Source of the DNA: a virus
Length of the DNA: 22,100 bases
IMG/VR virus record: IMGVR_UViG_3300050014_000683
Span: 1 to 22,100 of that record
Reading direction: 5' to 3' (one strand)
In this document: positions 4,390 through 20,769 of the stretch, piece after piece
Position numbering within the stretch: position 1 is the stretch's first letter
Layout of the letters: the number at the start of each line of letters is the position of its first letter
Notes under the pieces: model-generated
Databases searched by the model: none
What the model saw: the letters and a program-made list of their open reading frames with translations, nothing else
What the model was told of the DNA's origin: nothing
Program-made: the position numbers and the translations under genes

Positions 4390-7155
4390 ATGCCAGATAA
4401 TTTCACCGATCCAAAAAATATTGATAAGAATATCAATATCTTAACAGAACGCATTAAAAAAGCTCTTTCAGGATTAGATAAGTCTGTCTATGTTTTGCAG
4501 GAGAAAATGCGGGCCATTAGAGATATGTCCAAAGTGGAAGGTGAAACTGGAGCTAATAAGGCAGCCGATTTCTTAGGACAACGCTTAGATGATATTTCCA
4601 GAAATATAAAAGAAGCCTCAGTTTCTCAATTGAGAAATAATAAAATAAGATTAGAATCTCTTAAAGGCATGGCTTTAGATACTTTAGGAAATTCTAAACA
4701 AGGTGAGGGTGTTTATAAGCAATATGAATTATTAGTTTCTAAGTTAAACGAAGAAATTCAAATTCGCAAACGTATGGCGTTTCGTGTTGGTGATTTCATG
4801 AAACGTAATGGTATTGACGCTATTAGTATCACTGCGGCATTAACTACTAGAAATCCAATTATAGGTTTAGGTATAAAATATTTATTAGAAAAAAGAAAAG
4901 CTTCTAAGGAAGAAGATGCCCAACAAAAAAGAAATGGTATTCTGGATCATTTAGAATATATTAAATTTTTACGTAATCAAAAAGAACGGAGAAATAGATC
5001 AGATAATGATGGAGTTGAAGGTTCAGAACGTAAGAGAAAAAAGAAAACTGAAAAAGAACCAAAAAAGGATAAAAAACAAAAGAGAAATAGATGGGAAAAA
5101 GATGAACCTACTATTTTAGATGCCGAATTTGAAGACCTACCGGGTAATGGTTATGGAAAAGCAGAACCGACTCCGGAATCTGAAGCATCTAAACCTCCAT
5201 TTTATATGCCTCCGGCAACATCGACTCCGGAATCTGAAGCATCTAAACCTCCATTTTATATGCCTCCGGCAACATCGACTCCGGAATCTGAAGCATCTAA
5301 ACCTCCATTTTATATGCCTCCGGCAACATCGACTCCGGAATCTGAAGCATCTAAACCTCCATTTTATATGCCTCCGGCAACATCGACTCCGGAATCTGAA
5401 GCATCTAAACCTACTCCGGAATCTGAAGCGCCTCGTTTATTATTAGGACCAGGAAAATTTAGAAACCGCGATGAAAAAGGCCGTTTTGCCAAAGGTGTAG
5501 TTGAAGGTAATTACGTACCTAAACAAGCTGGTGTAGAAGCTAATGCACCTCAATTAGTGTTAATTAATGGCACATTAAATAAAATACAAACTGATTTAGA
5601 AGACTTCCATAAAGAAGACAAACAATTATCTGATGCTCAATTGGATGAAATAGAAGAAAATCGTATTAAAAATGCCGGCGGTCCCAAATTATTAGGAATG
5701 GGAAATAAAGATTCTGGTGGTAATAAAGAATTAATGAAAAAAGGTGATAGTGGGTTAGCAATAGGATCATTACTTTCAAAAGCACAAGGATTAATAACAG
5801 CGGCGCCTGGGGCACTTGCTAAAGGTGGTGGTGCTTTAATAGAAGGTGTTGATGCCATGGCAGGCACATTAGGAACTATGGGAGCCGGTCTTGGCACAGC
5901 GGCTATAGCTGGAGCAGCTACAATAGCAAGTTATAAAATTGCCCAAAAGGCTTCAAAAGGACTTTTAGGATTATTTGGTATTGACCCGGATCAAGATAAG
6001 AATTTAGAAATTGAGGCTTTACGAGATAATAATATTGTAATTGATGATCCTTGGTGGCTTCCAGAACCAATTTGGAATTCTAGAGTATTAAAGGCGGATG
6101 AAGCTTTACAAAATAAACTTGGTGTTGATTGGAAAAAGAAATGGTTAAAACAAAAACATCATGATATTTTCAAAAAAGCTTATCCAAATGAAAAAGATGA
6201 AATTCCAAAAACATCTTTAGATATATCAAATGAAAAATCACAAACCTTACCGGATGAATCTATACCAGCATCTACAGATATAACACCACCAGGTTCTTGG
6301 GATAAACGAAATCTGAGAGTACCGGCACAAGTTCCTGGTGCAGCAATAGCTCCACCTATATTAGCCAATAATGCATCGGGTGATAATCCACCAACGAGAC
6401 CACAAATTTCACATGATTCCATTATTCCACCACAAGTAACACAAGCACCTAAATTAGTTACTTCTTCTAAGATGACTTTAAGTGAGGCTGGTTTAAGTAA
6501 ATTAAAAAAGAATGAAGGATTAAGAAAGAAAGCTTATCCTGATGCCGGTCACATGTCTATTGGTTACGGTCATCAAATTAAACCTGGTGAAAATTATACT
6601 GAGATAGATGAAAAAACTGCAACTGATTTATTACGTCAAGATGTTTCATCTGCCGAAGCGGCAGTTAATTCCGTAGTTAAAGTACCAATCTCTCAGGAGA
6701 TGTTTGATGCATTAACTGATTTTACCTATAATACCGGATGGCAAGGTAATAAAAGGCCAATTGATAATATTGCTGCAACTTTAAATTCTGGTGATTATAA
6801 AGGTGCCGGTAATAGAATGAAATTGTATAATAAATCTCGAAATGCTGGCAAATTAGAAGTTAACCCAAGTTTAAATACTCGCCGCAATGATGAAGATATG
6901 GCTTTTAATAATTCTGATGTTGCTTTATCTCCAAAACAACCACCAACTCAAGGTAAAAGTATATTAGATGGAAATAAACAAATTGAGGATTCTAAAGCAG
7001 CAAATAGTGCCAATAATTCAGGAACAGGAAATACAATTGTTGCACCAACAAATAATACACAAATTAGTAATTCCATTATCGCACAACAACATGATCCGCG
7101 AAATACTGATAATACCTATAAAGATGCACGTTATAGAGACAGTTTCGCAAGTTAA
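4390..7155 (+). CDS. Tape-measure-like tail protein with C-terminal GH24 lysozyme domain
   Basis: 921 residues. Order: an N-terminal charged helical part (1-240) rich in Lys and Glu; a proline-rich tandem repeat (261-348); a coiled-coil-like segment around NGTLNKIQTDLEDFHKEDKQ; a Gly/Ala-rich hydrophobic stretch (about 460-532); a linker; a T4-lysozyme-type domain (about 695-838); and an Asn/Gln-rich tail. In the lysozyme domain E709 and D718 match T4 E11 and D20, while S723 replaces T26 in SIGYGH. It follows the tail chaperone as tape measure genes do, and its hydrophobic segment also fits a tape measure. Unlike T4 gp5 it has no visible OB or beta-helix parts. The lysozyme could open the peptidoglycan during DNA entry. 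Confidence 0.7.
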   Translation: MPDNFTDPKNIDKNINILTERIKKALSGLDKSVYVLQEKMRAIRDMSKVEGETGANKAADFLGQRLDDISRNIKEASVSQLRNNKIRLESLKGMALDTLGNSKQGEGVYKQYELLVSKLNEEIQIRKRMAFRVGDFMKRNGIDAISITAALTTRNPIIGLGIKYLLEKRKASKEEDAQQKRNGILDHLEYIKFLRNQKERRNRSDNDGVEGSERKRKKKTEKEPKKDKKQKRNRWEKDEPTILDAEFEDLPGNGYGKAEPTPESEASKPPFYMPPATSTPESEASKPPFYMPPATSTPESEASKPPFYMPPATSTPESEASKPPFYMPPATSTPESEASKPTPESEAPRLLLGPGKFRNRDEKGRFAKGVVEGNYVPKQAGVEANAPQLVLINGTLNKIQTDLEDFHKEDKQLSDAQLDEIEENRIKNAGGPKLLGMGNKDSGGNKELMKKGDSGLAIGSLLSKAQGLITAAPGALAKGGGALIEGVDAMAGTLGTMGAGLGTAAIAGAATIASYKIAQKASKGLLGLFGIDPDQDKNLEIEALRDNNIVIDDPWWLPEPIWNSRVLKADEALQNKLGVDWKKKWLKQKHHDIFKKAYPNEKDEIPKTSLDISNEKSQTLPDESIPASTDITPPGSWDKRNLRVPAQVPGAAIAPPILANNASGDNPPTRPQISHDSIIPPQVTQAPKLVTSSKMTLSEAGLSKLKKNEGLRKKAYPDAGHMSIGYGHQIKPGENYTEIDEKTATDLLRQDVSSAEAAVNSVVKVPISQEMFDALTDFTYNTGWQGNKRPIDNIAATLNSGDYKGAGNRMKLYNKSRNAGKLEVNPSLNTRRNDEDMAFNNSDVALSPKQPPTQGKSILDGNKQIEDSKAANSANNSGTGNTIVAPTNNTQISNSIIAQQHDPRNTDNTYKDARYRDSFAS
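5170..5433 (+). repeat. 54-bp in-frame tandem repeat in the tape-measure-like gene
   Basis: Four perfect copies of a 54-bp unit (5170-5223, 5224-5277, 5278-5331, 5332-5385) encode TPESEASKPPFYMPPATS. A 27-bp partial copy (5386-5412) and a diverged 21-bp start of another (5413-5433) follow. Complete identity including third codon positions points to recent expansion. The peptide is Pro/Ser/Glu-rich and probably a flexible spacer. Confidence 0.95.
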
Positions 7156-15362: not shown

Positions 15363-15558
15363 TTTGTGCCGTATGATTATATTTATAATATAACCAGAAA
15401 TCTTTGGACTCTTTTTTCAAAGCTTCCTGATTTTGTTTCTCAGGATCAATTTTCAGATATACAATGTTACCATTATCATGAGGCAACATTCTTGCACGTA
15501 TAATACCCATTGCGATAGCTTCTGGAGTAAGTTCTAAATCTTTACTAGAATCAGGCAT
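15334..15558 (-). CDS. Hypothetical protein
   Basis: 74 residues when started at ATG 15558 (MPDSSKDLELTPEAIAMGII). A TTG two codons upstream is a poorer choice because the ATG shares TAATG with the stop of the interrupted zinc-finger gene. Helical N-terminus, VYLKIDPEKQ in the middle and a polar C-terminus. Not recognised. Confidence 0.55.
   Translation of the reverse strand: MPDSSKDLELTPEAIAMGIIRARMLPHDNGNIVYLKIDPEKQNQEALKKESKDFWLYYKYNHTAQNEIPEKSIS
15380..15387 (-). promoter_or_regulatory. Late promoter core TATAAATA
   Basis: Exact T4 late consensus in the transcript sense, 17 bases before the ATG at 15362 and inside the upstream reading frame. Confidence 0.45.
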
Positions 15559-15707
15559 TACCAATTATCTTCCTCTTCATCAAATGCGAGATAATCCCTA
15601 CCAGGCAAAATATCTTCCATGTAGTCCTCAGGATAATAAATGATATTCCAATCATCTTCATTCCAATCAGTTTCAAAATCACATATAGGGCAATAAAAAT
15701 CATCACC

Positions 15708-15715
15708 TAAAAATT
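15708..15715. repeat. Target-site duplication, left copy (TAAAAATT)
   Basis: The 8-bp direct repeat directly outside the left inverted repeat. An identical copy flanks the right end at 16231-16238. Confidence 0.9.
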
Positions 15716-16230
15716 GGGAATTATATACATGACTACCTCGCTTGAACTCGTTGAGTCAGAGATTCCCAGTCCCAAAGCGATAGCGCCCCCCTGGCTGGTA
15801 TCGGCTCGCAATGCTGCACGTCGGCCAGTAACCACGCCCATCGGCCCGGCGAGTAGTCTCCAAAGCCACGTTCCTTGTCGTCCAGGTAAAAATCCGCACA
15901 CCCCGCGAGGTAGTCAACTTCGATAAGCCGGTTGTTTTGAAGTTCTCGCGTTGGAATGCAGGCTATGAGACGGCACGTTGCAATGACCATTCCGAGTGGT
16001 AAAGGCCCCGGACCTAGTTCCCGTGCAAACTCGGGCTCGTTGCACGTGTCTTTGGCCCATTTCGGGAAGCTTTTCGCTGCGTGGATCGCAAGCGTCCCCC
16101 GATAGGGAGTACGCCAACCTCGCGTTTCGATCTTCTTCGCGCCTATCGCAACCAGAGTTGCCCATGGCTGTGTCAAAGTCAGCGCTTTCATCACGATTCG
16201 ACCTCCGGGGTAGTCATGTATATAATTCCC
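15716..16230. mobile_element. 515-bp transposon-like element with 22-bp inverted repeats and an ASCH gene
   Basis: Perfect 22-bp terminal inverted repeats (15716-15737 and 16209-16230; each starts GGGAATTATA at the outer end and finishes GACTACC inward) are flanked by the 8-bp duplication TAAAAATT. The interior is GC-rich, unlike the AT-rich genome around it, so it came from another genome. No transposase is encoded; the only gene is an ASCH-domain protein. It looks like a non-autonomous element mobilised in trans. An 8-bp AT-rich duplication is seen in several IS families (for example IS1595, ISL3, IS66), but the ends do not let me choose one. Confidence 0.9.
15733..16191 (-). CDS. ASCH-domain protein carried by the mobile element
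   Basis: 152 residues from ATG 16191, which has GGAGG 10 bases upstream. The ASCH pattern is clear: KALTLTQPWATLVAIGAKKI (residues 2-21), ETRGWRTPYRGTLAIHAAK, then GMVIATCRLIACIP and a final GRWAWLLADVQHCEPIPARG. ASCH domains have a PUA-like RNA-binding fold; members include nucleases and amidohydrolases acting on modified nucleosides, so the function here is open. The TAG stop lies inside the left inverted repeat. The in-frame ATG at 16272 belongs to the disrupted host gene and should not be taken as the start. Confidence 0.85.
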   Translation of the reverse strand: MKALTLTQPWATLVAIGAKKIETRGWRTPYRGTLAIHAAKSFPKWAKDTCNEPEFARELGPGPLPLGMVIATCRLIACIPTRELQNNRLIEVDYLAGCADFYLDDKERGFGDYSPGRWAWLLADVQHCEPIPARGALSLWDWESLTQRVQAR

Positions 16231-16238
16231 TAAAAATT
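16231..16238. repeat. Target-site duplication, right copy (TAAAAATT)
   Basis: Identical to 15708-15715 and directly outside the right inverted repeat. It lies in the Glu-Phe-Leu codons of the interrupted gene. Confidence 0.9.
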
Positions 16239-16277
16239 CACCACATTCACAATATCTGTTTTGCTCACTCATTTATT

Positions 16278-19297: not shown

Positions 19298-20257
19298 TCA
19301 GAATTCACGCCCATCACCAACATTAAATACAGGAAGTCCTAAAGACCGCCACATCCTACACACTTTGGGTCTATCATCAATTACCACAAATACATTATAT
19401 TTACCTCTAATATGTTCGTCAAAAATTTCTTCCTTTATAATTTCATCAGAACGCAGGTCTCCAGTTTTACGCATTTCTAATTTAAAATAATCTCCAACAT
19501 GGAATCCACATTTATCAGAAAGAAATCGTAAAGTAGGAGTTTTATGTTTATCCATTCTTCCGGAAAAGAAATGAATTTTAGAAATTAAAGGATTTCCAAT
19601 ACCTTCGGAAAAGCAATGCTGTATCTCTGATATGTCATGATAAGTTTGCAATAAGTACAATACATGGTTATTTGGTGTATCGAGTACATCACACATAGAA
19701 GCATCATAAGGATTTCTGTTACCAATATTTGCTAATGTGCCATCTAAATCGCAAATAATAGTCCAGGGAAGATTAAGATCAACAGGATATGGTGTTGGGT
19801 CTTTAATTAAGCCACCTTCTTTAGCCATCCTCATAATAACAGATTCACCTACAGAATCTTTGCCTCTACCCATATCACGGAGAATACATGTTCCGATATC
19901 AACATGTCGGAAATCTTTAATAATGATATCAACTTGCCAATTTTGATTGATATAGGTTTTTAAAGATTCCAGAGTCGTTGGATTCAAATGGGTATTATCA
20001 ATAATAATATCATATCCTGAACACAAAGCAGCTTGAATCCTTTCCTTACGAGTCTTCCGTACTTGATCTTCCAACTTATGTGACCATTTAAAATTTTCAC
20101 CAAATAATTCTTTACGTATATCATCATTATTAATCCTAATAATTACGTTATCCGTATAATTATCTATGAAGTCTTTAGCCCAAGTAGTTTTCCCACTACC
20201 CGGTAGTCCGATAGTAATATAAACTCTTTGCATTCGTTCCATAATAGAATTTACCAT
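19298..20257 (-). CDS. pseT: Polynucleotide 5'-kinase / 3'-phosphatase, PseT-like
   Basis: 319 residues (T4 PseT: 301). Kinase domain: P-loop TIGLPGSGKTTWA at residues 15-27, RINNDDIR, and IIIDNTHLNP. HAD phosphatase domain: DLDGTLA at 170-176 (D170 and D172 catalytic), HFFSGR, and VFVVIDDRPKVCRMWRSLGL, ending FNVGDGREF. In T4 it repairs tRNA ends cut by host nucleases, together with RNA ligase; no ligase is in this window. Translation may instead start at the ATG at 20233 (MQRVYITIG), which has GGAAC a few bases upstream and fits the T4 start better. The annotated start overlaps the upstream gene by 7 bases. Confidence 0.9.
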   Translation of the reverse strand: MVNSIMERMQRVYITIGLPGSGKTTWAKDFIDNYTDNVIIRINNDDIRKELFGENFKWSHKLEDQVRKTRKERIQAALCSGYDIIIDNTHLNPTTLESLKTYINQNWQVDIIIKDFRHVDIGTCILRDMGRGKDSVGESVIMRMAKEGGLIKDPTPYPVDLNLPWTIICDLDGTLANIGNRNPYDASMCDVLDTPNNHVLYLLQTYHDISEIQHCFSEGIGNPLISKIHFFSGRMDKHKTPTLRFLSDKCGFHVGDYFKLEMRKTGDLRSDEIIKEEIFDEHIRGKYNVFVVIDDRPKVCRMWRSLGLPVFNVGDGREF

Positions 20258-20769
20258 TTCTTTTTGATGATAAAGTCAATCGCATCACGATATATACTCC
20301 AAGGATTACACTCCGGATGGTTTTTGAGTTCATCCGGATCCTCAGATCGCATCCAGTACTCAAAGTCATGGATTACACAACCAACTCCAATTTCAGTTGG
20401 AGAATATTGGTATACTGTATATGGATTGCATTGAATTTGAATTGGTGTTTTATCTAGAGTTACTCCAGATGCTAATTGAGTCCGTGGTATTAGAGAGACT
20501 CTATTACCTAAATGTACATCATCACCTAAAGTGACATCATTACCTAAAGTGACTCCATGACCTAAAGTGACACCATAACCTAAGTGGACATCATTACCTA
20601 AACGGGCACCAATACCTAAACAGGTACTATCACCTAAAATTACCCAATTACCTAAAATGACTCCAGTACCTAAATGTACATCATTACCTAAATGGACAAA
20701 ATTACCAGTAGGTAATTTACGCCATCCGAAGTCATCTGGTTGAATTGCATAAATTTCTTGTGTTGTCAT
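20251..20769 (-). CDS. Hexapeptide-repeat left-handed beta-helix protein
   Basis: 172 residues. Residues 22-93 are twelve consecutive hexapeptides of the form G-x-x-V-x-L (for example GNDVHL, GTGVIL, GYGVTL, GDDVHL), which fold as a left-handed beta-helix of about four turns. The C-terminal part (PYTVYQYSPTEIGVGCVIHD, then WMRSEDPDELKNHPECNPWS) is separate. Hexapeptide helices occur in acyltransferases, but the catalytic His setting is not evident. A trimeric structural role is possible. Transcribed from a consensus promoter whose -10 is 6 bases from the ATG, so leaderless. Confidence 0.75.
   Translation of the reverse strand: MTTQEIYAIQPDDFGWRKLPTGNFVHLGNDVHLGTGVILGNWVILGDSTCLGIGARLGNDVHLGYGVTLGHGVTLGNDVTLGDDVHLGNRVSLIPRTQLASGVTLDKTPIQIQCNPYTVYQYSPTEIGVGCVIHDFEYWMRSEDPDELKNHPECNPWSIYRDAIDFIIKKKW
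20491..20706 (-). repeat. Twelve 18-bp repeats encoding hexapeptides
   Basis: Twelve 18-bp units (72 codons) encode the hexapeptides; on the plus strand each contains CCTAAA or a near variant, and ACATCATTA recurs. The units are near-identical rather than exact, so the array has diverged after duplication. Confidence 0.85.

Follow-up and report, generated by a model that had tools for sequence, protein, structure and literature searches.

The window, by which we mean the whole 22,100-base stretch analysed (a virus record, IMGVR_UViG_3300050014_000683), is part of a T4-like phage, and the PHROGs assigned in it include tail tube, DNA end protector, baseplate tail tube cap, exonuclease, PhoH and polynucleotide kinase. 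At one locus a short segment with transposon-like borders carries an ASCH-domain gene and divides a small zinc-ribbon gene. The features of this locus are as follows.

15558..15715, minus strand: 3' part of the interrupted zinc-ribbon gene, with CxxC
15708..15715, no strand: 8-bp target-site duplication TAAAAATT, left copy
15716..16230, no strand: 515-bp non-autonomous IS1595-type cassette, delimited by ends, duplication and GC
15716..15737, plus strand: left terminal inverted repeat GGGAATTATATACATGACTACC, holding the cargo stop TAG in the minus-strand sense
15733..16191, minus strand: ASCH-domain cargo gene, 152 aa from ATG, with stop TAG at 15735-15733 in the left repeat
15733..16272, minus strand: 179-codon read-through ORF, from the start of the interrupted gene across the right repeat and on, in the same frame, into ASCH
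16202..16206, minus strand: GGAGG ribosome-binding site, just inside the right repeat and 10 bases upstream of the ATG
16209..16230, minus strand: right terminal inverted repeat, matching the left one at 22/22 bp
16231..16238, no strand: 8-bp target-site duplication TAAAAATT, right copy
16239..16272, minus strand: 5' part of the interrupted zinc-ribbon gene, with CxC

A preliminary description of this DNA had claimed a 515-bp insertion with perfect 22-bp inverted repeats, an 8-bp duplication and a shift in GC content, and all of these were confirmed with exact coordinates. The repeats match at 22/22 bp, and at 24/25 when extended to 25 bp. Allowing up to three mismatches, the 22-mer occurred at 2 sites in the 22.1-kb window and at 0 in 100 dinucleotide shuffles. 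The GC content is 0.555 (55.5%) in the cassette versus 0.333 in the rest of the window. As had been stated, the cassette encodes no transposase, and none was seen in the rest of the 22.1-kb record, which may itself be a fragment. The ASCH gene is the sole gene of the cassette and has the same orientation as the flanking ORFs. Its start, binding site and stop, described earlier as intact, were each located as ATG (16191-16189, with an alternative GTG one codon upstream at 16194-16192), GGAGG and TAG. Each repeat (15716-15737 and 16209-16230) also contains TATAAT in outward orientation, resembling the -10 box of a promoter, together with an ATG that faces outward; these might influence genes downstream.

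Excision of the cassette with one copy of the duplication rejoins MSEQNRYCECGEF and LGDDFYCPICDFETD... into a 63-codon ORF with the zinc-ribbon pattern CxC...CxxC, which the insertion divides. A twin IMG/VR contig (L012) carries the same ASCH cassette with an exact 8-bp duplication and is 100% identical across the cassette region; it is not independent proof against an assembly error because the reads may be common to both contigs. The check for an empty site in related phages that the preliminary description had proposed found none. The neighbouring 391-aa protein led to two distant relatives (27% identity), neither with cassette ends; the joined zinc-ribbon protein recovered the twin contig only, or no match. 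Among 50,697 phage records there was no DNA-level match to the region. Two repetitive regions were observed elsewhere in the window. A tandem repeat of TPESEASKPPFYMPPATS units at 5120-5446 lies in a 921-aa protein whose C-terminal part is endolysin-like, and the twin contig aligns to it in several registers. At 20251-20769, a 172-aa protein with regular hexapeptide-like repeats (LGNDVHLGTGVILGN...) is probably a beta-helix.

The cargo protein matched the Pfam ASCH family at E = 3.2e-4, slightly above the curated cut-off, and contains the superfamily motif G-x-K-x-x-[ETS]-x-R as GAKKIETR. A moderate-confidence model (mean pLDDT 64) has the PUA-like fold of the superfamily and matched the TRIP4 ASCH domain in Foldseek at E = 2e-8. 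By sequence and predicted fold, the nearest solved relatives are the ASC-1/TRIP4 ASCH domains, some structures of which include double-stranded DNA; the GxKxxExR motif is common to both, but the cargo protein is otherwise distant, with 20-23% identity to TRIP4 in the fold comparison. We also considered an amidohydrolase role of the YqfB type, for which the catalytic residues are Lys21, Thr24 and Glu74 (PMC9599836). The position equivalent to Thr24 is Glu23 in the cargo protein and is invariant across 19 aligned sequences. As read from this alignment, YqfB chemistry is unlikely because the invariant Glu sits where the nucleophile Thr is needed, and nucleic-acid binding is favoured for the same reason. 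The gene is probably a nucleic-acid-binding accessory gene, and a search of a defence-gene library with it gave no match. ASCH in phages corresponds to phrog_3193, and viral homologues with 35-56% identity look like ordinary phage genes. A vertically inherited ASCH gene accompanied by the same repeats would have spoken against mobility; none of 20 viral homologues outside the twin contig had the cassette repeats around it.

The preliminary description had proposed that the same ends might be found around other cargo or beside a transposase, and both were found. The exact 22-bp end is present in 12 other IMG/VR contigs, and exact ends enclose at least four other single genes besides ASCH. Exact 8-bp duplications flank a 434-bp cassette with a DUF3307 gene (L001/L004), a 454-bp cassette with a DUF6527-like gene whose match falls just below the Pfam cut-off (L003), an 810-bp cassette with a gene that, by our reading of its sequence and without a Pfam match, appears PAPS-reductase-like (L006+L009), and a 688-bp cassette with a phrog_12600 gene and a single change in one end (L010). 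In another contig (L013), which stops so that only one end is visible, the exact 22-bp end adjoins an open frame for an IS1595 transposase, along with a small basic ORF and one intervening ORF. An IS1595 transposase element with close ends on both sides was present in L197. One degenerate form of the end was found in 50 viral stretches and another in 35; a third subgroup occurred in at least 120. The first of these forms occurred in 46 stretches within 257 Gb of cellular genomes, mostly as single ends but also as a 170-bp miniature family in an Oligoflexia bin, and only one of the 46 (L070) had the exact 22-mer.

The transposase of one such element (L017) matched the Pfam families DDE_Tnp_IS1595 (PF12762, 1.4e-41) and Zn_ribbon_IS1595 (PF12760, 5.9e-10). 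The target duplication of the IS1595 family is 8 bp (PMC5704250, PMC12561309), and with its DDE domain, zinc ribbon and 8-bp duplications the mobilising group is a member of this family. Two conserved transposase peptides retrieved 579 viral stretches from IMG/VR, 544 of which encode a relative, and ends with an exact 8-bp duplication bound 46 of the best 79 transposase loci. No close transposase was present among the 50,697 phage records, the best having 36% identity. Autonomous elements consist of the transposase, often a basic ORF of about 45 aa near one end, and at least one passenger gene. The basic ORF has the consensus P-x-ELD-x-I-x-D-x-VL-x-Y-x-P followed by a Lys/Arg tail, matches no Pfam family, occurs at L183:3924-4061 and in about 20 other autonomous elements, and is a possible transposition accessory protein. 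Between L030+L032 and L051, the transposase half is 91% identical and the opposite 150 bp 93%, while the passenger between them differs.

We tested whether the family is confined to viruses, and this idea had to be softened. The transposase clade is also present in bacterial contigs, including one from Acidobacteriota in which a copy lies beside haem and respiratory-chain genes. A strong transposase match was present in two of 396 Acidobacteriota genomes, one of which had been chosen as a known carrier, and a further genome had a cassette. A search of 398 genomes of another phylum, run with no positive control, gave 0 transposase matches.

Among the viral loci collected, 123 distinct elements with this end or close variants of it had an exact 8-bp duplication. 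A full transposase and passenger were present in 62 (1.42-2.93 kb), 51 were without any transposase (183-1371 bp), 7 had transposase fragments, 2 had TnpB and one was of 46 bp. These proportions are not population frequencies, as the search itself selected for these ends or for this transposase. The duplications are 80% A+T and comprise many different 8-mers. In 77 end pairs, which include some cellular elements and duplicate contigs, the flanking 8-mers were exact in 51 and had at most one mismatch in 57, whereas ends paired from different elements reached this level in 15/3192 cross-pairs. GC content ranged from 0.45 to 0.63 across cassettes and from 0.34 to 0.70 in their flanks. The ASCH cassette has the largest positive GC offset from its flanks among the cassettes compared, which agrees with its having come recently from a source of higher GC.

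Cargo was also compared between elements. The C5-methyltransferase gene of a cassette (L046) and the passenger of an autonomous element (L157) have 87-91% nucleotide identity over the main aligned parts and lie in different phages beside different duplications (AAAACTAG and CTTTCATT); thus one gene occurs both with and without a transposase. Related N4/N6-methyltransferase cassettes (L042 and L127) likewise have different duplications. In L045, a 267-bp element interrupts a TnpB frame that relatives keep continuous, which is equivalent to an empty site. Two elements (L126 and L003) are inserted into, or adjoin, the end of another element. Portal, terminase, head and replication proteins are encoded in the flanks of elements. 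Recurring cargo includes Dam, N4/N6 and C5 DNA methyltransferases, SspD/PAPS-like proteins, TnpB and a RyR-domain protein, with many phage protein families of unknown type in addition. In about half of 30 cargo genes examined the stop codon lies inside the repeat (a TAG 17 bp from the end, or a TAA 5 bp from it); an ATG at repeat position 14 is the start of four of the 30. The repeat shuts two of the three inward frames, so by its geometry it could terminate a captured gene that lacks its own stop.

Several arrangements around related ends were recorded separately. TnpB (IS605 OrfB/Cas12f-like) is the only gene between related ends in five viral stretches (L016, L033, L132, L133 and L327) and three cellular ones (L062, L067 and L087), with an exact 8-bp duplication in L132, L327 and the cellular L087. 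At L280:469-1964 two different cassettes are adjacent, and the 8-mer CTATATTG stands on either side of the pair as well as between its members; this pair is either a tandem array or the result of serial insertion at one site. A 46-bp unit at L005:1669-1714 consists of two facing ends with the 8-bp duplication AAGCGCTT, itself palindromic. It may be a minimal empty element or a mere hairpin, because it also forms a simple hairpin. Miniature elements of 170 bp, 99-100% identical, low in GC and with a related end (L054, L060, L061, L072, L088 and L097), occupy several positions within a single Oligoflexia genome bin.

Passenger genes are known in IS1595 elements of bacteria. The mobilisable tISCpe8 of Clostridium perfringens, which carries lincomycin resistance, and MTnSag1/tISSag10 of Streptococcus agalactiae have 25-bp inverted repeats, 8-bp direct repeats and a passenger gene (PMC5704250). 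The phage family resembles them in its DDE IS1595 transposase, inverted repeats, 8-bp repeats and passenger, but differs in its phage accessory cargo, its conserved basic ORF of about 45 aa and its many transposase-less single-gene derivatives. The qnrD and qnrS2 mobile insertion cassettes are described as having insertion-sequence-type ends around a non-transposase gene and no transposase (PMC3913671, PMC5444012). The ASCH cassette has this same organisation, and its ends match those of autonomous elements (exactly at the one end visible in L013, closely at both ends in L197). Mobile insertion cassettes are presumed to be mobilised in trans. The qnr cassettes are found on bacterial plasmids with resistance genes, whereas the phage family has IS1595-type ends, dozens of cargo types and repeats that often supply start or stop codons. 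MITEs are likewise short and transposase-less with terminal repeats and target duplications, and the 170-bp Oligoflexia family has a related end, but the phage cassettes encode one intact gene. We rejected a MITE for the ASCH element, as its intact 152-aa gene conflicts with the lack of coding capacity of such elements.

We consider it highly probable that the ASCH cassette is a mobile insertion cassette with IS1595-family ends, mobilised in trans by a transposase that an autonomous relative encodes. The shared ends, other cargo and transposase-bearing relative strongly support the non-autonomous mobile cargo unit suggested in the preliminary description. One phage-type gene lies between two short IS1595-family ends from which the transposase gene would have been lost. 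An autonomous relative that has the same ends, and that resides in the host, in a prophage or in a co-infecting phage, would supply the enzyme; the nearest helper with identical 22-bp ends is the element of L013, cut by the contig end. The ends of roughly 22 bp would be recognised by the enzyme, which would transpose the unit to an AT-rich site and duplicate 8 bp. The cargo, which would be expressed, almost fills the space between the repeats, with its ribosome-binding site just inside one and its stop in the other. By this route the cassette would have landed in the small zinc-ribbon gene of the T4-like phage, co-oriented with the flanking genes. Against this reading stand the failure to find an empty-site relative of the phage, the lack of a helper transposase in the 22.1-kb record, the truncation of L013 and the occurrence of the clade outside phages.

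It is improbable that the ASCH cassette is instead a dead remnant, meaning a transposon with an internal deletion that arrived a single time, can no longer be mobilised and has retained its ASCH gene by chance. The lack of a nearby transposase and the many decayed or single-ended relatives are in keeping with such a remnant, but its ends are perfect and its duplication exact, its ORF is intact with a ribosome-binding site, exact ends recur in the 12 other contigs, several of which have a different cargo that is intact, and the large GC mismatch with the phage fits a recent arrival. We judge it very unlikely that the cassette is a site-specific recombination unit, integron-like or a tyrosine/serine-recombinase module, rather than a DDE transposon: although single-gene units with short flanking repeats and the one tandem pair with a common CTATATTG would suit such a module, the related ends flank DDE IS1595 transposases and the duplications are many different AT-rich 8-mers, not a fixed att site. 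Integron gene cassettes are mobile single-gene units with exchangeable cargo. The phage cassettes differ from them in their DDE ends and variable 8-bp duplications, neither an integrase nor a fixed recombination site was seen at them, and assignment as integron cassettes was rejected. A chimera made in assembly from a GC-rich segment and a T4-like phage contig was named earlier as a possible refutation and is equally unlikely, since the exact duplication and restored zinc-ribbon ORF at the junctions are not expected of a chimera and a matching family of elements exists, despite the abrupt GC shift and an identical twin contig possibly built from related reads.

As a mobile insertion cassette, the ASCH element belongs to what is apparently an undescribed, large family of tiny phage transposons. 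Cassettes derived from insertion sequences and insertion sequences with passengers are known; the scale and form seen here in phages appear new. We found no description of phage-borne IS1595 cassettes in the openly licensed literature, which does not prove that none exists. Insertion sequences are described as rare in phages, and transposases as very rare in virulent phages (PMC8136500). The elements of the family are most likely mobile insertion cassettes for which an IS1595-family transposase that is common in phages acts in trans. On balance we favour the view that phages share a large, active system in which IS1595-type helpers, each with a transposase, the basic micro-protein of about 45 aa and a swappable gene, operate with transposase-less single-gene cassettes whose ends serve as translation signals. 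Such a system would shuttle accessory genes, among them those for DNA methyltransferases and SspD-like proteins, between unrelated, partly virulent phages, much as integrons move resistance genes between bacteria. The mosaicism of phages has mostly been attributed to recombination. A family present at hundreds of viral-contig loci offers a concrete and testable route of gene exchange between structurally unrelated phages, and searching between its ends provides a means of discovering new genes for anti-restriction or for the modification of nucleic acids.
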